Shown here piece by piece: positions 3,353 through 19,587 of a DNA stretch of 19,587 bases. Every line of letters begins with the position of its first letter. Position 1 is the first letter of the stretch. The notes below the pieces were generated by a model. That model was not told the DNA's origin. It saw only the letters and a list, made by a program, of their open reading frames with translations, and did not search any database. Origin of the DNA: a bacterium (lineage in GTDB: Bacteria > UBA9089 > CG2-30-40-21 > SBAY01); the NCBI GenBank assembly GCA_040757115.1, contig JBFLYA010000056.1, positions 1 to 19,587 of the forward strand, given 5' to 3'. Made by a program: the position numbers and the translations under genes.

Positions 3353-3395
3353 GTAATTATTCAGGTGTAAGCAAGGAAAAATGGAAAAGTTGGAA
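3353..3395 (+). repeat. Solo arm of a GTAA(N3)TTCAGG element
   Basis: GTAATTATTCAGG (3353-3365) followed by a G/A-rich stretch resembles the left arm of the element at 5494-6182, which also has GTGTAA-CAAGGA-AAATGG-like text. No matching right arm is seen, and it abuts the end of the next element at 3396. It lies just upstream of the NtrC-type gene and probably marks a truncated insertion. Confidence 0.5.
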
Positions 3396-3399
3396 GTAA

Positions 3400-3818
3400 C
3401 TATTCACCACGAAGAGCACGAAGGACACGAAGATTGGACAGAACAAATCTCTTTATGCCTTCTTTCAATCTTTCCACATTGAAATTTATCAATAGATCAA
3501 CCTTGATATTTGCCAATTTCATATATGGTAATGGGTCAGTGAAATGGGGGATTCTCCTGAAAGTAGGAAGTAGGAGAGTAGGAAAGTAGGAAAGGGGGAG
3601 ACATTACCCCCAGAAGAGGAATACCGGGCACATCCTTTAGCCCTTTCCTACTTACCTACTACCTACTTGCCTACTATTTTCATTGCTCTGTCCTCCGCAG
3701 GTTAATGTTCATTCCCCCAAATAACTGACTTATTACCATATATGTCAATATTTGAGCTTCATGAATTCGATAATTCATCAAATTTCACTTCGTGCTCTCC
3801 GTGCCCTTCGTGGTGAAT
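3400..3818 (-). pseudogene. GxxExxY family protein, middle lost (copy 1)
   Basis: GxxExxY proteins are small members of the PD-(D/E)XK nuclease-like superfamily (about 125-135 aa) of unknown function. Only the two ends remain. The N-terminal piece (3818-3762) reads I-H-H-E-G-H-G-E-H-E-V-K-F-D-E-L-S-N and then stops. The C-terminal piece (3522-3400) contains L-L-I-N-F-N-V and ends R-V-L-R-A-L-R-G-E before a TAG. The core with the GxxExxY and E-x-K motifs is missing and replaced by a palindromic insertion. The first residues of the N-piece and the last residues of the C-piece are encoded by the terminal repeats of the surrounding element, which explains the odd HEGHGEHE head and RVLRALRGE tail. 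Confidence 0.75.
3520..3744. repeat. Palindromic insertion inside GxxExxY copy 1
   Basis: Terminal inverted repeats CATATATGGTAAT (3520-3532) and ATTACCATATATG (3732-3744) enclose inner G/A-rich and C/T-rich arms built from GTAGGAAA-like units (about 3558-3595 and 3641-3676). A long hairpin is possible. It takes the place of the middle of the GxxExxY gene, so insertion was accompanied by deletion. No coding potential is seen. Confidence 0.55.
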
Positions 3819-3820
3819 AG

Positions 3821-3957
3821 TTACACTACCTTTAACAGTAATCGGTTTTCTTCATATCCTTTTACCACAAGATGGCTATCGTGAAATACTTTGATGGTCT
3901 CTTATTCACGAAATCAAACCCTAAATCTCCACTTTCATCAAGATATAAGTATAGCAT
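3821..3957 (-). pseudogene. DUF3800 protein, N-terminal fragment with frameshift
   Basis: From ATG 3957, after a GGAAGG ribosome site, the frame reads M-L-Y-L-Y-L-D-E-S-G-D-L-G-F-D-F and then K-Y-F-T-I-A-I-L. This is the diagnostic start of DUF3800 proteins, whose Y-L-D-E-S-G-D motif resembles RNase H-fold active sites. A TAA comes 31 codons in. The expected continuation (I-L-V-V-K-G-Y-E-E-N-R) appears in another frame immediately before it, so one frameshift broke the gene. It then ends at the edge of the repeat element at 3824. Family proteins usually exceed 200 residues, so this is a short 5' relic. Between it and the hsdR fragment (3958-4153) nothing recognisable is seen. Confidence 0.7.
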
Positions 3958-4153
3958 CTATACCTTCCTTACCTTTCTCTTTATAGGACGCAGATGACCG
4001 CAGATTGTCAGGATAAAGAGGATGATGTCAAGCAATTCAATTTCGGCTCTCTTATGAGCCTGTGCCTCTTTGACCTGAACGAATCAATAAATTCAAGAAC
4101 GCCTCCTTAAATCCCCCTTTATCTTCTCCTTTCCCTTCGCTTATCTCCCTTCC

Positions 4154-4258
4154 TTAAGAGTTGAATAATATGGCGATGGGACGGTGGGATATACTCTGTT
4201 CTTTGAGATAGTTTGCTGTTGTCTGTTGCACCAGTGTGTCTTCATTTAAAGAAGTCAT
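4154..4258 (-). pseudogene. hsdR: hsdR, first ~21 codons only (type I restriction endonuclease)
   Basis: The frame M-T-S-L-N-E-D-T-L-V-Q-Q-T-T-A-N-Y-L-K-E-Q is the standard start of HsdR, the ATP-dependent motor/nuclease subunit of type I restriction systems, normally about 1000 residues. Homology stops after about 21 codons; an unrelated tail leads to TAA at 4156-4154. Its ATG overlaps the rhuM stop codon as ATGA, typical of a translationally coupled operon, so the order was hsdS-rhuM-hsdR. The rest of hsdR is absent, so restriction activity from this locus is lost. Confidence 0.8.
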
Positions 4259-5301
4259 AGTTTTTCCCTTTTAGTTTCAAGTAATTTTTTAACCTCTCGG
4301 TCAAAGTCGGATTCAAAGAGCCGATCTTGAACAATCCTATATTTTTCGTATTCGCTTTCCGCTAAAGCAAGGGCTACTTCATGGCTGATTTTACCGCTAT
4401 CTTGTAAAATTTCCTTTTCATTGAATTGCAAGAAAGCATCCAGCTTTTCCACCCAATCTTTCATATACATAACAATGCCTTTTTGCGCCTGCATTTCAGC
4501 ATAGTCCAGATACATCGTTACAATACGGTTAAGGCTGTCTAACTCCTTTTCGTTTAAATAATTTTTGGCTATGCCTACATCCATTTTGCGGATTGCTCCT
4601 TTGGGGCTGTTTTTCCAGGAGGTTAACCCCATATTAGGCTTTTTGCTGTCAACTCTCTGGTAAATAATTTCCGCAGCAGTCTGGCCGCTTATCGCAAAGT
4701 GTAATTTATTCTGCACCGTGGCAAAAAACTGTTTGGTTATATCGGTATTGGGATCATAATCAGCGCTGCATTGAGCGTAAATATCCGTGATCTTTTGATA
4801 GAACCTCCGCTCGCTGCTGCGGATATTTCTGATGCGTGCCAGTTGTTCTTCAAAATAATCCTGTCCAAAAATATTGTTTGGATTTTTCAACCGCTCATCA
4901 TCCATAGCAAAGCCTTTAATGATGTATTCCTTGAGCACCTGCGTCGCCCATTTCCTAAAATGCGTTGCTCTTAGCGAATTGACCCGATAACCTATGGATA
5001 TAATTGCGTCAAGGTTATAAAACTCTACTTTTCTTGATACTTGTCTTTGACCCTCTTTTTGAACTTGTGCAATTTTTACACAAGTTGAATCTTTATTCAG
5101 TTCGCCTTCAGAAAAAATGTTTAGAAGATGTTTGGTAACCACACTTCTGTCCACATCAAAAAGCTCGGCAATCTTTGCCTGTGTGAGCCACACGGTTTCA
5201 TCGCGTAAGAATATCTCCACCTTTACCTTACCGTTTGGCGCGGTGTAGAGCAAAAATTCCGTGAAGCTGTTTTGTGGAACAATCTGCTTGTTTCTTCCCA
5301 T
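4255..5301 (-). CDS. rhuM: RhuM family protein associated with type I restriction operons
   Basis: A complete 348-aa member of the RhuM family, first noted in Salmonella pathogenicity island 3 and often found inside type I restriction-modification operons. The N-terminal region (about 25-115) looks like a winged-helix DNA-binding segment, with W-L-T-Q-A-K-I-A-E-L-F-D-V-D-R-S-V-V-T-K-H and the family motif V-E-F-Y-N-L-D-A-I-I-S-I-G-Y-R-V-N-S. The conserved F-R-K-W-A-T-Q-V-L-K-E-Y follows. The C-terminal half is helical and ends in a charged tail. It starts 3 nt after the hsdS stop and overlaps the hsdR start, so it was co-transcribed with both. It is the only intact gene left in that operon. 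Its biochemical role is unknown. Confidence 0.9.
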   Translation of the reverse strand: MGRNKQIVPQNSFTEFLLYTAPNGKVKVEIFLRDETVWLTQAKIAELFDVDRSVVTKHLLNIFSEGELNKDSTCVKIAQVQKEGQRQVSRKVEFYNLDAIISIGYRVNSLRATHFRKWATQVLKEYIIKGFAMDDERLKNPNNIFGQDYFEEQLARIRNIRSSERRFYQKITDIYAQCSADYDPNTDITKQFFATVQNKLHFAISGQTAAEIIYQRVDSKKPNMGLTSWKNSPKGAIRKMDVGIAKNYLNEKELDSLNRIVTMYLDYAEMQAQKGIVMYMKDWVEKLDAFLQFNEKEILQDSGKISHEVALALAESEYEKYRIVQDRLFESDFDREVKKLLETKREKL

Positions 5302-5304
5302 TCT

Positions 5305-5493
5305 TTACACCTCGATTTCTCCACTCATCAGCCGCGGCAGGAGCAAATCGCGGGCTTGAGCGAGTTTTTGGTTTTGGTCAAACAAAGTCAGAATTTCATC
5401 GATCATGGGTTCAACAATTGCGCCGAATTTATCGATTGGGATAATTATCACTATATTTGGCTCACGGTCATCTTGAACCTTTAAAATATGTTT
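5305..5493 (-). pseudogene. hsdS: hsdS, C-terminal fragment (type I specificity subunit)
   Basis: The frame ends with A-R-D-L-L-L-P-R-L-M-S-G-E-I-E-V-stop, the signature C-terminus of HsdS, preceded by the helical conserved region (F-G-A-I-V-E-P-M-I-D-E-I). HsdS determines the DNA sequence recognised by type I systems and normally has about 400 residues with two target-recognition domains. Here only about 60 codons remain, cut at 5493/5494 exactly where the GxxExxY-carrying element begins. The stop lies 3 nt before rhuM. Confidence 0.82.
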
Positions 5494-5566
5494 GTAACCG
5501 TTCAGGGCTATACATTAGAAGTGTAAACAAGGAGAAATGGGGAAAAGGGAGAACTGGAGAAATGGC

Positions 5567-6140
5567 TCAAACTTTTTCTTGCTCCACCCTTCGGACATCA
5601 ATCCTGGAATCTGCGAAATTTACCAGTAACCCTATTTCTTTATCCACTGCTCTAATGTATAATCTAACCTGATTATAATACTTCCCACTTATCTCCTCAA
5701 CAGTTTTAATCTCTACCACAATCTCATCTTCAACAAAAAGATCAAGTCTATGAATCCCAACCTCAACACCTTGATAGAATATCTTGACTTCTTTTTCTGA
5801 TTCAAAGATGATGTTGTGTCTTGCAAACTCAACCTTCAAAGCATTGTGATAGATGCTCTCCAGAAAACCAGGTCCTAATGTCGTGTTGAACAAATAACGC
5901 ACGGAATTCGATTCTGGTAACTGGTGATTGGTAACTGGTAATTAAATACCGTTGGGCTGAGCTCAGGACGAAACTATTTAACCAATTACCAATTACCAGT
6001 TACCAATTATCCGTTTGCAGGTTACGAAACCTGATGATGCCCCGTGCAAAACTTACTCAACACGACACTAACTTTTTATGGACATTAATACAGGCATTAA
6101 TAATCCTATCAGTTAACTCTTCTTTTCTCCATTTCTCCAT
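5567..6140 (-). pseudogene. GxxExxY family protein split by a 189-bp insertion (copy 2)
   Basis: From ATG 6140, with AAGGAGAAAGGGAG just upstream, the frame reads M-E-K-W-R-K-E-E-L-T-D-R-I-I-N-A-C-I-N-V-H-K-K-L. It is then interrupted by the element at 5879-6067. Removing that element and one copy of its CTAA duplication restores H-K-K-L-G-P-G-F-L-E-S-I-Y without a frameshift, giving a 126-aa protein of normal length. The name motif G-x-x-E-x-x-Y is G-F-L-E-S-I-Y. The nuclease-like core R-L-D-L-F-V...V-V-E-I-K supplies the D and E-x-K residues of the PD-(D/E)XK fold. As it stands, a 111-residue piece starting at GTG 5902 could be made. Cellular role unknown. Confidence 0.85.
5879..6067. mobile_element. 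189-bp MITE-like element with 4-bp target duplication CTAA
   Basis: Terminal inverted repeats TGTCGTGTTGA (5879-5889) and TCAACACGACA (6057-6067), extending inward to GCACGG/CCGTGC, are flanked by CTAA on both sides (5875-5878; 6068-6071). The interior has a second palindrome built of GGTAACTGGT/ACCAGTTACC units and no coding potential. It interrupts GxxExxY copy 2 exactly between codons for L and G. Its ends and 4-bp duplication differ from the GTAA family, so a different transposase is implied. Confidence 0.8.
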
Positions 6141-6191
6141 CTTCTCCCTTTCTCCTTATTTTTATCCTACCTGAACCCTTACAAAAAATTG

Positions 6192-6406
6192 GTAACTATT
6201 CACCATTCACAATTTCTTCCCTAAATTTCCTTAATAATGGTGAATTGTGAATTGTCAATTGTGAATGGTGAATTATCACTCTTCACGGTGTTAAGCAAAC
6301 CTGGTCCAAGAGTTCGATGCACCGCTATAGCGCATCCAATGACTCTATTCGATAATTCATCAAATTTCACTTCGTGCTCTCCGTGTCCTTCGTGGTGAAT
6401 AATTAC
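6192..6406. mobile_element. GTAA(N3)TTCACC element with residual GxxExxY start
   Basis: Ends GTAACTATTCACC (6192-6204) and, inward from the right, GTAATTATTCACC (6406-6394). AAAAATT lies outside each end (6184-6190; 6408-6414), separated from the GTAA by one base, which looks like a slightly altered 8-bp target duplication. Inside are the CACGAAG arm and N-terminus of a GxxExxY gene, plus a TTCACCATTCACAATT palindrome (to 6279). It appears to be an internally deleted passenger-carrying element, one step from a MITE. Confidence 0.55.
6221..6406 (-). pseudogene. GxxExxY family protein, N-terminal third only (copy 3)
   Basis: The frame reads H-H-E-G-H-G-E-H-E-V-K-F-D-E-L-S-N-R-V-I-G-C-A-I-A-V-H-R-T-L-G-P-G-L-L, the N-terminal part of a GxxExxY protein up to the residues before the name motif. 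It then runs into palindromic repeat sequence and stops at 6223-6221. There is no ATG; the frame opens within the terminal repeat. The first 18 residues match copy 1 almost exactly, so copies 1 and 3 belong to the same element subfamily. Confidence 0.75.
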
Positions 6407-6428
6407 CAAAAATTATAAATATCAATTT

Positions 6429-7323: not shown

Positions 7324-7560
7324 GTAACCGTTCAGGCTATATATCAAAAGTGTAAGAAAGGGGATAAGGAGATAAGGACGATATGGAGATAAGATAATAG
7401 AAATAGATTGAAATTTATAGAAATAGGTAGAAATTGATTGTGGGAAACAACAAATTTCCATAAATTTCTATTAGTTTCTACTAATTTCAATTTTTTTAAT
7501 AATATCCCCTTATCTCCTTTATCTCCATATCTCCTTTTCTTACACCACCTGAACGCTTAC
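7324..7560. mobile_element. 237-bp MITE with GTAA ends and 8-bp target duplication AATTTATT
   Basis: Ends GTAACCGTTCAGG (7324-7336) and, inward from the right, GTAAGCGTTCAGG (7560-7548) are flanked by identical AATTTATT (7316-7323 and 7561-7568). The arms are purine-rich (GGAGATAAGGAGATA) and the centre is another palindrome of TAGAAATT-like units, so the whole can fold into a long hairpin. There is no coding potential. A second copy begins at 19462 in the opposite orientation. GTAA ends with 8-bp duplications match the IS66 family; the transposase must be elsewhere. It separates the kinase gene from its promoter. Confidence 0.88.
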
Positions 7561-7598
7561 AATTTATTTTATAATCCTTCTTCACTTAACTTTATTTT

Positions 7599-7627
7599 AT
7601 AATAGCATATTTTATTGGAATTGTAAA
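7599..7627 (-). promoter_or_regulatory. Promoter of the soluble histidine kinase (TTTACA-17-TATTAT)
   Basis: On the minus strand TTTACA (7627-7622) and TATTAT (7604-7599) are 17 nt apart. It faces the kinase gene but is now separated from it by the 237-bp element, so the transcript would carry a long, highly folded leader. Confidence 0.55.
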
Positions 7628-7644
7628 GAAAAATTAAAAAATTA

Positions 7645-7673
7645 TTGACAATAACATAATTAATGGATATAAT
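7645..7673 (+). promoter_or_regulatory. Perfect sigma-70 promoter (TTGACA-17-TATAAT), apparently orphaned
   Basis: TTGACA (7645-7650) and TATAAT (7668-7673) with a 17-nt spacer match the consensus exactly. In the other copy of this block the same promoter directly precedes a histidine kinase. Here the next gene is the membrane protein at 7883, beyond a repeat and an attC-like hairpin. Confidence 0.6.
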
Positions 7674-7698
7674 TTTTAGTTAGAATAATAAAAAATAA

Positions 7699-8589: not shown

Positions 8590-9209
8590 CAGAATGTGTT
8601 GGTTTTGGCAGCGGTGAGGTGTGTAGAATTAAATCCAGTCAGGGCGAAGGTGGTAGAATCAGCGTGGGAATATAAGTGGTCAAGTGCTGGTGCCCATGTA
8701 AGAGGTAAAGACGATAAGTTAGTAAAGGCAGGAGTAACTATTCAGCCACTGATTAACACGGATTAGCACGGATAAATACAGAGGGCAGAAGGCAGAGGAG
8801 GGCAGAGCCGGGGTGTCCCCCGCTGGCGGGGGTTAGGGGGTGGAAATTTCCTCTACTGGCAGAGAATCAAGAAGGATAGAAGATAAAAGTCAGAAGGAGA
8901 AAAACCCTTCAGTCTTCAGCCTGATTACGGACACGGAAAACGGACACGATTCACGAATTTTCTGTGTTTCATCCGTGTTCATCCGTGGCTGAACAATTAC
9001 AGGCAGGAAGGCTATTAGAGGTAATAAGTGATTGGAGTGGATTTTTGGGGAATGGATTAAAAGAGGAGGAGATGGAAGTTATGCGTAGTCACAGATGCAC
9101 CGGCAGAGTGCTTGGTAGTGAGGAATTTATAAGACAGGTAGAGGTGGATATAGGACTGGTCTTATGTCCATTGAAACGGTGACCAAAGGGTCTATGGAAG
9201 AATAAATAA
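8590..9209 (+). pseudogene. REP-associated tyrosine transposase (RAYT/Y1), C-terminal relic split by insertion
   Basis: The frame from 8590 reads V-L-A-A-V-R-C-V-E-L-N-P-V-R-A-K-V-V-E and W-S-S-A-G-A-H, the diagnostic C-terminal half of RAYT/IS200-like transposases. The stretch before 8734 (L-V-K-A-G) joins perfectly to R-L-L-E-V-I-S-D-W-S-G-F-L after 9008 if the element 8734-9000 and one 8-bp repeat are removed. The tail L-G-S-E-E-F-I...G-P-K-G ending is also recognisable, but a TGA at 9180-9182 replaces the glycine codon before P-K-G. The N-terminal HUH motif and catalytic tyrosine are absent, so the gene was already dead. No intact RAYT lies in the window. Confidence 0.82.
8734..9000. mobile_element. 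267-bp MITE with GTAA ends and 8-bp target duplication AGGCAGGA
   Basis: Ends GTAACTATTCAGCCAC (8734-8749) and, inward from the right, GTAATTGTTCAGCCAC (9000-8985) match at 14 of 16 positions and are flanked by identical AGGCAGGA (8726-8733; 9001-9008). Next to the ends are ACACGGAT-type tandem units. The centre holds other repeat text, including a G/C-rich GTCCCCCGC/GCGGGGG hairpin around 8816-8832. There is no coding potential. Removal restores the interrupted transposase frame. Confidence 0.88.
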
Positions 9210-9694: not shown

Positions 9695-9897
9695 AAAAGG
9701 TAACTCATACCGTAGTCTGTCCATACAACAAAGACCACAAATTCCCTGTTGTCCTGGAATTAAAGGATGAATCAAAGGGCACTAAAAGCTCTATAGACAC
9801 ATTCTGCCCTTTTTGTGATAAGATTGTTCGGGTAGAGATTGAGGGGGAATTATCACCTGATACTGTGATTATGCGCGGCAAGGAGGAGTACCTATGA
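9691..9897 (+). CDS. Small zinc-ribbon-like protein of the CHAT operon
   Basis: 68 aa, overlapping both neighbours by 4 nt (ATGA at each junction), so the three genes are translated together. C10-P-Y-N-K-D-H16 and C39-P-F-C42 form a likely Cys-His/Cys-Cys zinc-binding ribbon. The segment between is acidic and beta-rich, and the C-terminus is charged. It has no membrane segment or catalytic motif. It could be an adaptor linking the membrane protein and the large protease, or a substrate or inhibitor of the protease. The function is not known. Confidence 0.78.
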   Translation: MKKVTHTVVCPYNKDHKFPVVLELKDESKGTKSSIDTFCPFCDKIVRVEIEGELSPDTVIMRGKEEYL

Positions 9898-12800
9898 TAT
9901 TTAAGCGGATTGAGCTGAAGCTGTCAGATACTGAAACTAAAGCCCTGAAGGCAAGTTTTGGCAAAGCAATTGCTTCCATAGAAAGTGCCGGTCGGCTGCA
10001 TAAAGGCAGCTCTCTGGATATCAGCATGTTGGATGAACTTCGCACAAGCCTTTCCAGCATCGTTAAAAAGACCCCACCTCTTGTTTCTATCCTTGAAGAC
10101 ATCTCAAAAAGCAATAATTTTTACCACATCAATCTATACCACCTTGATACAGAGATTCTGAATATACCCTGGGGAATAGCTATTGACCCTGTGTCTGACC
10201 GGCCACTTAACCAAAATCCTCAGCTCTTTATAAGCAAAAACACACTCCTGGCTGAGCCGAGACCTAAACCACCAACCCCCGGCCCACTTAAAATCCTGAT
10301 CATGCTCTCTTCTCCCAAAGATATAACTATTGAAGGTCGGCTGAATTATGAAGAGGAAGAGCGGCTGATTCTAAGTGCCTTTGAGCCACTGTTTACAAGT
10401 GGCCAGGTGCAGGTGGACTTTACTGATGATGGTTCTCTTTCCTCACTTAAACGCAAGATTGATAAGAATAACTACCATATCCTGCATTTTAGCGGCCACG
10501 GTATCTTTGATGAGGAAAAGGGGGAAGCCCGCTTGCTGCTGGAAGATGCCTTGAGCCTGAAGGCAGAATATGCTAAGCCTCTGGAATTTGCCGAGGCGAT
10601 TCTTAAAGATGACCATACCATTCCCCTGGTTTTCCTCTCTTCCTGCCAGAGTGCCCAGGCAAAGTTTGAAAAAGGTATGGCTGGGCTCACTGGCACATTA
10701 TTGCAAAAGGGCATCACGGCAGTGGTCTCCATGGGTATGTCCATTTCCGACCAATATGCCACTCTGTTTGCTTACCATTTTTATCAGAAAATAGCTGATA
10801 AAAAGACCCTGACCCTGCCTGAGGCATTTGCCTATGCCCAGAACGAGATAAGAAATGCAGAAGCCAATGAAATTATTCGCCAGGGGAATTGGCAGCGACA
10901 GCCAGCCCAGTGGATAATCCCCAACCTATACCTCAGTTGTGACACCCAAATTGTTGACTGGGACAATAAAGACTTTGAGCCACTGGTGCCGGATGATACA
11001 AACATCATCTTTGCCAATACTACTATGGGAAAAACAGGTATAGAAAAAGACCAGTTTGTTGGCCGCCGGGAAGACCTTGCCCGGATTATGCCTGTTTTGT
11101 ATGAGAAAAAGCATGTTCTCCTCAATGGCCAGGGAGGTATTGGCAAGACAACTATGGCCCGTAAGCTTATCCTGAGGCTTATTGCCTTTCAACCTGATCT
11201 AACTCCCTTTATCTTTAACCAGGAAGGTACAGAGTTTGCCTTAAGCACTGTCCTTGACCAACTTAAAAGATTCTGCCTACGAAAGGACAAAATACAATGG
11301 GTGGATGCCCTGGTGCATCTTAAGGATAATCTCATAGAACAGATCAACTTCTTGCTGGACAGGATAGGCAGGGAATTTAAGGTTGTCCTGCTCTTTGATA
11401 ATGTGGAATCATTCCAGGATGAGCGAACCGGGGAGTTTCTCTCAGACCATGAGCCAACCCTCTCAGTAATGGCCTATGCCGCCAAACACCCAAAGATTTT
11501 CACCATCTTTACCTGCCGCTATCCGATAAAGGAATTAGAAGAAGCCCTGATATCCTTTGATTTAAACGATATTGAGCTTAACGACTTTATCCGCAAATGC
11601 TATAACCTTGAGCTAAAGCTTGACCAGAACCAGATGGAATTCTTATACCAGGCCATTGGTGGTAATTTCCGCTATATCGAGTTTTTCCATAAGGCATTTT
11701 CTAAGGCAGATAAGGAAATGGACAAGACCCTTGAGGAGTTTGAAGAAAAGGACAGAGAAGTGACTAAGGAGGTCTTACAGAAGATGGCTGAGAATCTGAT
11801 CTTTGATAGACTCTGGGAAAAGACATGCCCGAAAGAGAAAGAGCTGGCTAACCTCCTGTATCACTTTAGCCTGCCTGTGATTGAAACAGCCTTTCACCTG
11901 CAAGGTTATCCTGCTGATGCCTTGAAAGCACCCCTTGAGCACCTTAAAGACCTCACCCTTATTCAGGTCTATCTGGACCGGGAGCTAAGTCTTGTCTATT
12001 ACTTTATGCCGCCCTTAGTCAAAAACCTTCTGAAGCGTATCAAGGTAATAGAAAAGATGCCTGCCCAGTTTCACGAAAATGCCGGCAGATACCATTATTA
12101 CATGCTCTCCGAAGTCCAGCATGGTAACATAAACGAGCTTGAAGCAGCCTTCTGGCAGTTTTATCATGCCAGGAACAAGGAGCGGATGGATGAACCTGGC
12201 GATCGCCTGGCCTGGTTTTACTATAGCCGCTCATTCTACGAAAACTCATTAAAGGTCTGCCAGGCAGTTTATGAGTTGTTTGGAGAAGATATGCCCTGGT
12301 GGTGTGGGAATAGAATGGGAACTATTTTTTTAAGCACCGGGCAATATGACCAGGCTCTACCATTTTACGATAAAGCCCTTAAGGCATTTGATACCCTGCC
12401 CACCCTTACTGATGAAGACAAAGAGAATAAAGGGGCAACCCTGAACAATATCAGTCAGATTTGCTCTGCAAGAGGAGATTACGATACCGCTCTTGACTAT
12501 CTTAACCGCTCATTAAAGATATTCAAGGAAGGTGGGAATAAATATGAAGAAGGGGCAACCCTGAACAATATCAGTAGTATTTATTATGCAAGAGGAGATT
12601 ACGATACCGCTCTTGACTATCTTAACCGCTCATTAAAGATTCGCCAGGAAATCGGGGGTAAAAGTGGTGAAGGCACAACCCTGTCAAATATGGGCAGCAT
12701 TTCTTATGGCCGAGGAGATTATGATACCGCTCTTGACTATCTTAACCGCTCATTAAAGATTCGCCAGGAAATCGGGGATAAAAGTGGGGAAGGCACAACC

Positions 12801-13307
12801 CTGGCAAATATTGGTAATATTTTCTATGCAAGAGGAGATTACGATACTGCCCTTGACTATCTTAACCGCTCATTAAAGATTCGCCAGGAAATCGGGGATA
12901 AAAGTGGTGAAGGGACAACACTGAACAATATTTGTGCGATTTATCATGCCCGAGGAGATTACGATACCGCTCTTGACTATCTTCACCGCTCATTAAAGAT
13001 TAGCCAGGAAATCGGGGATAAAAGTGGACAGATTCCAACGCTTCACAATATCGCTATGATTGAGGCTGAAAGGGAAAATATGGAAGCGGTATTAGAACTG
13101 GAGATGGAGGCTTACCGACTGGCTGTGGAAACAAACGATGCCATGGGGTTGTTTCAGGTAGGGCAGGTATTTGGGCAACTGTTGGTTGGTATAGGCCAAA
13201 GAGAAGAAGGCACAGCCATTCTGCAGCGGGCGTTTGAGATTGGCCAGGCAGCCGGACTGCCTGGTACGGAACAAATCAGGGATATTTTAGCCCAGCCTGG
13301 TGTGTAG
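9894..13307 (+). CDS. CHAT protease-STAND NTPase-TPR protein
   Basis: 1137 aa in three parts. Residues about 75-350 form a CHAT (caspase-like) domain. Its catalytic histidine is H202 in H-F-S-G-H-G and its catalytic cysteine is C251 in L-S-S-C-Q-S, so the dyad looks intact. Residues about 386-720 form a STAND/NB-ARC-like NTPase: F-V-G-R-R-E (388-393), Walker A G-Q-G-G-I-G-K-T (412-419), Walker B V-V-L-L-F-D (D502), a T-C-R sensor motif, and G-G-N-F-R near the GxP position. Residues about 790-1120 are TPRs, including five 40-residue repeats (847-1046) almost identical at DNA level. Family logic: TPRs sense a ligand, the NTPase oligomerises, and the protease is switched on. It is the last gene of the coupled operon, and the operon looks richer in G+C than its flanks, suggesting transfer. 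Substrate and trigger are unknown. Confidence 0.93.
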   Translation: MIFKRIELKLSDTETKALKASFGKAIASIESAGRLHKGSSLDISMLDELRTSLSSIVKKTPPLVSILEDISKSNNFYHINLYHLDTEILNIPWGIAIDPVSDRPLNQNPQLFISKNTLLAEPRPKPPTPGPLKILIMLSSPKDITIEGRLNYEEEERLILSAFEPLFTSGQVQVDFTDDGSLSSLKRKIDKNNYHILHFSGHGIFDEEKGEARLLLEDALSLKAEYAKPLEFAEAILKDDHTIPLVFLSSCQSAQAKFEKGMAGLTGTLLQKGITAVVSMGMSISDQYATLFAYHFYQKIADKKTLTLPEAFAYAQNEIRNAEANEIIRQGNWQRQPAQWIIPNLYLSCDTQIVDWDNKDFEPLVPDDTNIIFANTTMGKTGIEKDQFVGRREDLARIMPVLYEKKHVLLNGQGGIGKTTMARKLILRLIAFQPDLTPFIFNQEGTEFALSTVLDQLKRFCLRKDKIQWVDALVHLKDNLIEQINFLLDRIGREFKVVLLFDNVESFQDERTGEFLSDHEPTLSVMAYAAKHPKIFTIFTCRYPIKELEEALISFDLNDIELNDFIRKCYNLELKLDQNQMEFLYQAIGGNFRYIEFFHKAFSKADKEMDKTLEEFEEKDREVTKEVLQKMAENLIFDRLWEKTCPKEKELANLLYHFSLPVIETAFHLQGYPADALKAPLEHLKDLTLIQVYLDRELSLVYYFMPPLVKNLLKRIKVIEKMPAQFHENAGRYHYYMLSEVQHGNINELEAAFWQFYHARNKERMDEPGDRLAWFYYSRSFYENSLKVCQAVYELFGEDMPWWCGNRMGTIFLSTGQYDQALPFYDKALKAFDTLPTLTDEDKENKGATLNNISQICSARGDYDTALDYLNRSLKIFKEGGNKYEEGATLNNISSIYYARGDYDTALDYLNRSLKIRQEIGGKSGEGTTLSNMGSISYGRGDYDTALDYLNRSLKIRQEIGDKSGEGTTLANIGNIFYARGDYDTALDYLNRSLKIRQEIGDKSGEGTTLNNICAIYHARGDYDTALDYLHRSLKISQEIGDKSGQIPTLHNIAMIEAERENMEAVLELEMEAYRLAVETNDAMGLFQVGQVFGQLLVGIGQREEGTAILQRAFEIGQAAGLPGTEQIRDILAQPGV
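12432..13031 (+). repeat. Five in-frame 120-bp tandem repeats encoding TPRs
   Basis: Units start at 12432, 12552, 12672, 12792 and 12912. Each contains a nearly invariant core beginning GAGGAGATTACGATACCGCT and encoding G-D-Y-D-T-A-L-D-Y-L-N-R-S-L-K-I. Identity extends to synonymous positions, so the units were recently duplicated or are kept alike by gene conversion. Only the helix-A residues facing the groove vary between units. Confidence 0.92.
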
Positions 13308-13512: not shown

Positions 13513-13809
13513 ATGACTTTACAGGAGATTATGGCTGATATTCACGCACTTCATGAAGATTTGGAAGCATACGAGCGCAAGTATGGAGTGCTTTCGGAAA
13601 CATTCTATGAATCCTACACCAGCGGGGAAGAGCCAGAGGATGATGACTGGGTGTTAGATTGGGCTGACTGGGCTGGGGCATACAAAATCATGCTCCGGCG
13701 CCGAGAACAATATTATCGGGCTATTCAGGACTTGCGAAAACAGTCACAAAGTCTGGTTAATGTTATTGAAAGGACGCTCCGTCATGAACCCATTCCAATC
13801 GCTTCATGA
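13513..13809 (+). CDS. Small coiled-coil protein, likely antitoxin partner of the TumE-like toxin
   Basis: 98 aa, almost entirely charged helix. It has an N-terminal heptad-like segment (L-H-E-D-L-E-A-Y-E-R-K-Y-G), a conserved-looking S-E-x-F-Y-E-x-Y motif, an acidic W-V-L-D-W-A-D-W-A-G stretch and a basic helix (L-R-R-R-E-Q-Y-Y). No DNA-binding domain is obvious. An AGGAGG site precedes the ATG by about 12 nt. The next gene starts inside its last codons, the usual antitoxin-first arrangement. The antitoxin call rests on position and partner; family assignment is not certain. Confidence 0.65.
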   Translation: MTLQEIMADIHALHEDLEAYERKYGVLSETFYESYTSGEEPEDDDWVLDWADWAGAYKIMLRRREQYYRAIQDLRKQSQSLVNVIERTLRHEPIPIAS

Positions 13810-14197
13810 CTATGAAGAATTCATTTATACCCTTAGACAATGCTTCCCTTCTGTTCAGAGGTCTACTCTAATAATTGTGCAACATGGTAAAAGGACAGCC
13901 ACTCTACAGGGGGAGATTGCCTTTACCCAGGGATATCGGATCACGCTTAAAGAGCGCCTGTCATTTGACGAAGGGCCTGTTGTGATTGAAGATTATGGGT
14001 ATGAATTATGGAATAAAGGGGACAAAATAGCCTGGTATGATGCACAACCGCATCCTGACGACTCAACCCTTGCCAGGACTTATCCTCACCATAAGTATAT
14101 CCTTCCTGATATTAAGCATCATCGCATCCCTGCATCAAATATGAGCTTCTCGCACCCCAATTTGCCAGCTCTTATTCAAGAAATTGAAAAATTGTGA
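13784..14197 (+). CDS. TumE-like toxin (DUF6516 family)
   Basis: 137 aa from ATG 13784 (M-N-P-F-Q-S), preferred over the in-frame ATG at 13760 because AAAGGA lies about 10 nt upstream. It overlaps the preceding gene by 26 nt. It has the family layout: beta strands with L-Q-G-E-I-A-F-T-Q-G-Y-R-I-T-L-K-E-R, then D-Y-G-Y-E-L-W, W-Y-D-A-Q-P-H-P, a P-H-H-K-Y-I-L histidine cluster, and a helical end. DUF6516 proteins include TumE toxins of type II toxin-antitoxin pairs; their target is not established. Intact, with its own promoter shared with the partner. A CACGAAG-type repeat follows its stop. Confidence 0.7.
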   Translation: MNPFQSLHDYEEFIYTLRQCFPSVQRSTLIIVQHGKRTATLQGEIAFTQGYRITLKERLSFDEGPVVIEDYGYELWNKGDKIAWYDAQPHPDDSTLARTYPHHKYILPDIKHHRIPASNMSFSHPNLPALIQEIEKL

Positions 14198-16109: not shown

Positions 16110-16213
16110 TAATCCTTCTTCACTTAACTTTATTTTATAATAGCATATTTTATAGGAATTGTAAAGAAAAATTAAAAATTTATTGACAATAACATAATTA
16201 ATGGATATAATTT
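16110..16213. repeat. 104-bp duplicated divergent promoter region, copy 2
   Basis: Differs at two positions from 7572-7675. It contains the minus-facing promoter TTTACA (16165-16160) to TATTAT (16142-16137) and the plus-facing promoter described separately. On the minus side nothing remains to be transcribed except the abutting CTGTGATTCA element. Confidence 0.85.
16183..16211 (+). promoter_or_regulatory. Perfect sigma-70 promoter of the kinase-receiver cluster
   Basis: TTGACA (16183-16188) and TATAAT (16206-16211) are separated by 17 nt, matching the consensus at all 12 positions. It lies 23 nt before the kinase ATG, with AGGAG at 16221-16225 as ribosome site. Strong constitutive expression is expected unless a repressor acts. 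Confidence 0.75.
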
Positions 16214-19461: not shown

Positions 19462-19587
19462 GTAAGCGTTCAGGTGGTGTAACAAAAGGAGATGTGGAGA
19501 TTAAGGAGATAGGGAGATATTATTAAAAAATTGAAATTAATAGAAACTAATAGAAATTTATGGAAATTTGTTGTTTTCCACAATCAA
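19462..19587. mobile_element. One arm of a second copy of the 237-bp GTAA element (runs off the window)
   Basis: From GTAAGCGTTCAGG (19462-19474) to the window end, the sequence is about 90% identical to the complement of 7560-7436, including the TAGAAATT-rich centre. The other arm and flanking duplication lie outside; the left-flank 8-mer is GACAAAAT (19454-19461). It sits 3' of the broken ptsI. Confidence 0.85.

Follow-up and report, generated by a model that had tools for sequence, protein, structure and literature searches.

Mirrored short-word arrays around GxxExxY genes in what look like tiny mobile elements

Related repeat systems

REPIN-RAYT systems combine REP sequences with a Y1 transposase gene, rayt. 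The GxxExxY loci considered here resemble them in having one gene between mirrored short repeats, in the way the repeat follows the protein lineage, and in the presence of scattered gene-free hairpins. Unlike RAYTs, however, the GxxExxY protein is modeled with a PD-(D/E)XK fold, not as a Y1 HUH transposase; each arm repeats one word in an array; and the elements are spread across bacterial and archaeal phyla.

Mirrored or complementary ends around a small ORF are also found in the 23S rRNA intervening sequences that carry an S23 ORF. The Coxiella example, which has a 28-bp terminal stem and GACAGAT heptamers in tandem ahead of its S23 ORF (PMC4990558), fits with the 7-bp arms of the S23-like genes described below for the phylum of the present genome. 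The GxxExxY elements differ in lying between protein genes (e.g., fabD and fabG), in carrying another gene, in their 8–12-bp spacing, and in showing no sign of selection at the RNA level. Insertion sequences and MITEs of the IS66 family share with part of this material GTAA(N3)TTCA ends and 8-bp target duplications, the latter also seen in ISPpa5a and ISPpa7 (PMC3281130), and IS66 transposase genes with the same ends occur in this phylum; the cargo here, though, is a GxxExxY or four-helix hairpin rather than transposase genes, and this outer layer is found in this phylum only. Heptamer repeats with no linked gene described include inverted pairs of GGGAATC in Xanthomonas (PMC4692102) and TAACTGA repeats in the Beggiatoaceae (PMC4679880). 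These are likewise short-period intergenic arrays, partly in mirrored pairs, and as a class they fit the four-helix elements rather than GxxExxY. In the open-access literature searched, the name GxxExxY itself occurs in two papers, each mentioning it in passing.

GxxExxY copies in the window

The window is a 19,587-nt stretch of contig JBFLYA010000056.1, from an assembly of 4.3 Mb in 462 contigs. A pattern search found GTAANNNTTCA 12 times in it, against 1.1 expected, a count reached in none of 200 shuffles. The GTAA(N3)TTCA sites are mostly arranged as mirrored ends, and the GTAA elements have 5'-GTAA ends in inverted repeat, as in IS66-family MITEs. A first-pass annotation had described three GxxExxY genes between positions 3396 and 6406, each framed by such ends. 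The mirrored ends are real, but the genes amount to a single one split by a 189-bp MITE plus two remnants, and in all three copies the GxxExxY gene is broken or incomplete. No Rfam match was found in the window.

Copy 1 (3396–3824, minus strand) is a GTAACTATTCACC...GGTGAATAGTTAC element with 37-nt inverted arms, 89% complementary, and a decayed GxxExxY gene recognized from tblastn remnants and six-frame translation. It is abutted directly by a solo IS66-type end (GTAATTATTCAGG...) with a G/A-rich arm fragment (3353–3395, plus strand; pattern search and sequence). The left word-array arm (3396–3432, plus strand) is made up of CACGAAG units, and its minus strand encodes ...RVLRALRGE-stop, as previously annotated; the right arm is at 3788–3824 (minus strand). 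All that remains of the gene is its start, VKFDELSNS, and its C-terminal end (LLINFNVERLKEGIKRFVLSNLRVLRALRGE-stop), with a second hairpin nested between them (3520–3744; arms at 3520–3551 and 3713–3744, inner AGTAGG arrays at 3562–3596 and 3641–3675).

Copy 2 (GTAACCGTTCAGG...CCTGAACCCTTAC, minus strand) has its ends at 5494 and 6182. Most of its GxxExxY coding region lies at 5585–5887 (minus strand; profile matches to TIGR04256 and PF13366), and the N-terminal part is at 6069–6119 (minus strand; tblastn), beyond the inserted MITE (5879–6067), which has TGTCGTGTTGA ends, a CTAA duplication, and its own hairpin (5914–5943/5991–6020). With the MITE left out, copy 2 is one open frame, MEKWRKEELTDRIINA...RVEQEKV-stop, and the earlier description of a start codon and ribosome site in one arm and a stop codon abutting the other then applies. 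Its intact relatives are two units elsewhere, L012 and L015, considered below. This MITE, with its inner TGGTAACTGGTAATTGG hairpin, represents a transposable family distinct from the GTAA elements, and it is also found on its own in the sister species G001, close to the L015 site (L145).

Copy 3 (6191–6407, minus strand; GGTAACTATTCACC...GGTGAATAATTACC) retains an N-terminal GxxExxY remnant of about 24 aa (tblastn), with an arm at 6370–6406 and a 7-bp flanking repeat, AAAAATT. The terminal repeats of copies 1 and 3 had been proposed to encode an N-terminal HHEGHGEHE. This stretch is in frame, but the conserved start of relatives, (V/M)KFDELS, is downstream of it, so the GxxExxY protein probably does not include it. 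Protein ends encoded by the arms are a minority feature overall, with the C-terminus so encoded in about 6 of 78 loci.

Gene-free elements were also mapped. The one at 7324–7560 is IS66-type, and its hairpin core is made up of GGATAAGG-type arrays; it has the same ends as copy 2, as already noted in the first-pass annotation, and a perfect 8-bp duplication, AATTTATT. The second (8734–9000), also IS66-type with GTAA ends, has arrays of a CACGGAT word at its ends and a perfect 8-bp duplication, AGGCAGGA. A partial further copy of the 7324–7560 element (19462–19587) is cut by the contig end. Together with those of L012 and L015, these two make four 8-bp target duplications seen; none was seen at copies 1 and 2, and that of copy 3 is 7 bp.

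The GxxExxY protein

In profile searches, the gene in the window and a distant relative both match PF13366 and TIGR04256 (105.6 bits for TIGR04256, against a curated cut-off of 35; E 3e-29 for PF13366). The structure model (pLDDT 95.5) has a PD-(D/E)XK fold. Its best match in the PDB is Cas4 (4ic1, Z 9.5), with archaeal Hjc resolvases next (Z ~7); no solved homologue was found by sequence. Of the D...ExK residues, D62 and K74 do not vary, and E72 is nearly invariant. GxxExxY is thus modeled as a Cas4/Hjc-like PD-(D/E)XK protein and is a predicted nuclease. Wolbachia Cin/Cid proteins and viral endonucleases are in the structure list as well (Z 6–7), and were taken to reflect the common PD-(D/E)XK arrangement.

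Mirrored word arrays across phyla

The general feature of these loci is a set of two to four copies of a 7-nt word, CRCNNA[G/T], 8–12 bp apart and in mirror image around the GxxExxY gene. In a first survey of 80 loci from bacteria and archaea (about 20 phyla), which favors proteins close to the query consensus, close inverted-repeat framing was found for 56 of 77 testable genes, as against 5 of 723 random intervals from the same loci. The arms consist of CRCRRAG units spaced 8–12 bp apart and start with TT(C/A)AC, where conservation ends. The second survey eases this bias, with genomes drawn from the first: copies were taken from an HMM search of 13 of those genomes instead of from best hits to a query, and 40 of 60 have mirrored arms at the same mirror-score threshold (18, arbitrary, fixed before the second survey), and 48 of 60 at a slightly lower one. 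The assemblies surveyed are mostly metagenome bins. Words in the second survey vary (CGCAGAT, CGCGAAT, CGCCAAG, CGCAATG, and others), each being repeated within its element and mirrored.

At least two chained CRCNNA[G/T/A] units are present on both sides of 102 of 188 genes, compared to none of 932 random intervals, and none of 29 HEPN control genes from the same genomes has mirrored arms. Where both arms have three units or more (35 loci), the first two word spacings agree between arms in 34 (permuted mean 7.7). Some 20–35% of GxxExxY copies have no recognized arms. Rhodopila globiformis (G070) has 11 GxxExxY matches, and recognizable arms were found in none of the five copies examined (L356–L360); these are possibly domesticated, or have another mode of spread.

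GxxExxY is the only gene between the arms; there is no encoded transposase, as there would be in an autonomous DDE or HUH insertion sequence. No consistent target duplication was found at the ends of the word arrays, nor did the sequence outside them show transposon ends shared by all phyla. Insertion into the loops of existing palindromes was also considered; mirrored flanks are not in excess outside the arms, apart from a few double-hairpin loci.

The elements lie between genes, more often co-directional with both neighbors (++ 33, -- 11). In Sphingomonas parapaucimobilis there is one in the gap between fabD and fabG, while in S. paeninsulae this gap is about 30 bp, with the element absent. 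A complete gene-free hairpin with these words is found in Bacteroides ovatus, between gmd and a GDP-fucose synthase gene. For elements of the present phylum without GTAA ends, no recent empty site within one genus was found; the L006 site, for example, has another hairpin in G001. Spread by phages or plasmids was set aside, with no phage record and eight plasmid records of the gene.

A second gene family in mirrored arms

Genes of the four-helix family TIGR02436 are in mirrored arms as well (34 of 40; L031–L050 and L208–L234, from this phylum and others). This is the S23 ORF family of the rRNA intervening sequences; it is unrelated to GxxExxY. The period is 7 bp in 57 of 68 four-helix arms, whereas GxxExxY arms peak at 8–10 bp (175 of 196), and each four-helix locus has a different heptamer. 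Two of the genes, L034 and L035, are inside the same GTAA ends as the GxxExxY units. The four-helix hairpins seem to be the same class of element as the rRNA intervening sequences, outside rRNA.

Word type and protein lineage

The last base of the word (G in 75 rows, T in 16, each from several phyla) requires just two changes on the protein tree, which is based on 117 columns and poorly resolved; the shuffled mean is 14.9, and none of 500 shuffles was as low. Spacing and the fifth base of the word also cluster on the tree, more weakly. Even with pairs restricted to different phyla, the more identical two proteins are, the more similar are their arms (Mantel r 0.46, permuted maximum 0.18). Part of this linkage comes from gene and arms having descended together as a unit, and the two could track each other merely through being inherited and transferred together. 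The word is, however, kept at about one change per column, unlike unconstrained DNA, so the arms are under selection. The simplest reason would be recognition by the GxxExxY protein. Because the word array matches the protein clade, the gene is more than chance cargo.

IS66-type ends in this genome and phylum

The genome that contains the window has 68 GxxExxY matches, mostly fragments, with 45 above the cut-off. It also has 27 matches to TIGR02436 and five to IS66 transposases. GTAA(N3)TTCA ends are found near IS66 transposase genes here and in related genomes (L058, L269, and others); no intact autonomous IS66 copy with these ends was found. The gene-carrying units L012 and L015 are both intact, with 8-bp duplications TTATACAC and GATAGGTG, respectively. 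The sister species G001 has a clean empty site for L015, where GATAGGTG is present once, and the L012 site is likewise empty in both G002 and G003, with a single TTATACAC. Duplications and empty sites, named in the first-pass annotation as what to look for, are thus present at both, and GTAA-ended GxxExxY units therefore transpose in this lineage.

Gene-free forms occur (L281 and L164), in two cases as deletion derivatives: G001 has the L002 element with its gene internally deleted, and the L196 element of G001 is a bare hairpin in G000 that retains the gene's final codon and stop. Deletion is thus how gene-free forms arise. The earlier suggestion that passenger elements and MITEs form one series is borne out here by the duplications, the empty sites, and the IS66 genes with the same ends. 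That GxxExxY is mobile cargo of GTAA elements is supported for this genome, where some copies travel within IS66-type transposon ends, but not as the general picture: GTAA ends are on both sides of 9 of 50 loci in this phylum and of none of 78 in other phyla. The outer wrapper is therefore peculiar to this lineage. Its TTCA coincides with the TTCACC that begins the inner element, an overlap that may have made capture easier. Four further GxxExxY units (L008, L009, L010, and L020) have GGATAAGG-type arms within a different outer inverted repeat (CGACCTGTGAAATAGG), so that one core hairpin is found with two or more kinds of outer ends.

Possible origin and spread

Overall, the GxxExxY hairpin looks like a kind of tiny mobile element not yet described, as judged within the open-access literature. 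The reading we favor, with a probability of roughly 0.6, has two layers, an inner and general one consisting of a nuclease hairpin with its own word arrays, and an outer one, specific to this genus, resulting from capture by IS66. The inner element (about 430–600 bp) is one gene of Cas4/Hjc-like nuclease fold between two mirrored arrays of a word that belongs to the element, being identical in both arms and following the protein clade. The protein would bind its own arrays, as duplex or as extruded hairpin, and nick or process them, with the result that the hairpin is copied or inserted into intergenic gaps and the element mobilizes itself. Gene-free hairpins would be deletion derivatives, persisting or moving in trans. 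In this genus, some hairpins lie between GTAA(N3)TTCA ends and are moved by an IS66 transposase, leaving 8-bp target duplications. The nuclease and its own word-array hairpin would then form a partnership like that of REPIN-RAYT. A bolder version, which we put forward tentatively and consider somewhat doubtful, makes the mobile hairpins an autonomous class with GxxExxY proteins as their only enzymes: the Cas4/Hjc-like nuclease would recognize the mirrored arrays that end its own element, with a specificity coevolving with the word, and would drive transposase-free intergenic insertion; the four-helix/S23 elements, including the rRNA intervening sequences, would be a parallel class with a 7-bp period.

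GxxExxY could instead be a pure passenger of IS66-type and other MITEs whose ends the transposase recognizes, with no role in their spread. The ends, duplications, empty sites, and same-ended IS66 genes of this phylum would all be expected, as would the four-helix genes L034 and L035 within the same ends. This seems unlikely given that GTAA ends are lacking on both sides at every locus surveyed in other phyla, where no shared transposon ends take their place outside the arrays, and that the word arrays occur generally and track the protein clade. Another possibility is an intervening element acting at the RNA level, whose arms pair in polycistronic RNA and whose stem is excised by RNase III, making it harmless between co-transcribed genes, the protein being incidental or an RNA enzyme. 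The intergenic and mostly co-directional placement fits this, as do the equal spacing in both arms, which a stem would require, and an anatomy shared with the rRNA intervening sequences that have heptamers and an S23 ORF (PMC4990558). Differences between arms, however, have no G-U bias in the sense RNA (112 wobble-compatible, 102 not), which speaks against selection on an RNA stem, and the word type itself is conserved between phyla beyond what complementarity demands; we consider this explanation quite improbable. Least credible, and very improbable indeed, is that the arrays are operators or terminators of a nuclease useful to the host, for example in defense or repair, that spreads by ordinary horizontal transfer. 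They do flank the gene closely, and the fold is of a repair or defense nuclease type, but the same arrays occur elsewhere as gene-free hairpins, one genome has many degraded copies among its 68 matches, no regulatory function is evident for the mirror array downstream, and the gene is nearly absent from plasmids and phages.

GxxExxY genes are widespread, and the word arrays give the family a candidate partner. On the two-layer reading, the arrays may explain scattered short repeats and hairpins of the CACAGAG, CGCAAAG, CACGAAG, and CACAGAT types, as well as heptamer repeats, and would link these to the rRNA intervening sequences. They also suggest a minimal class of mobile element built on a repair-type nuclease rather than a transposase.

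Other genes in the window

Between copies 1 and 2 is a RhuM-family gene (4255–5301; PF13310), and the sequence upstream of it resembles, by eye, a remnant of a type I restriction specificity gene. At 9894–13307 there is a gene for a 1137-aa protein with CHAT protease, STAND-like ATPase, and TPR regions, the last with five similar 120-bp units; it resembles a caspase-like defense or signaling protein. The small gene pair that follows (13513–14197) is likely a toxin-antitoxin pair, the second gene matching the toxin TumE family (PF20126) and overlapping the short gene upstream. Finally, a 104-bp direct repeat, 98% identical, is found at 7572–7675 and 16110–16213, beside two sensor histidine kinase genes.
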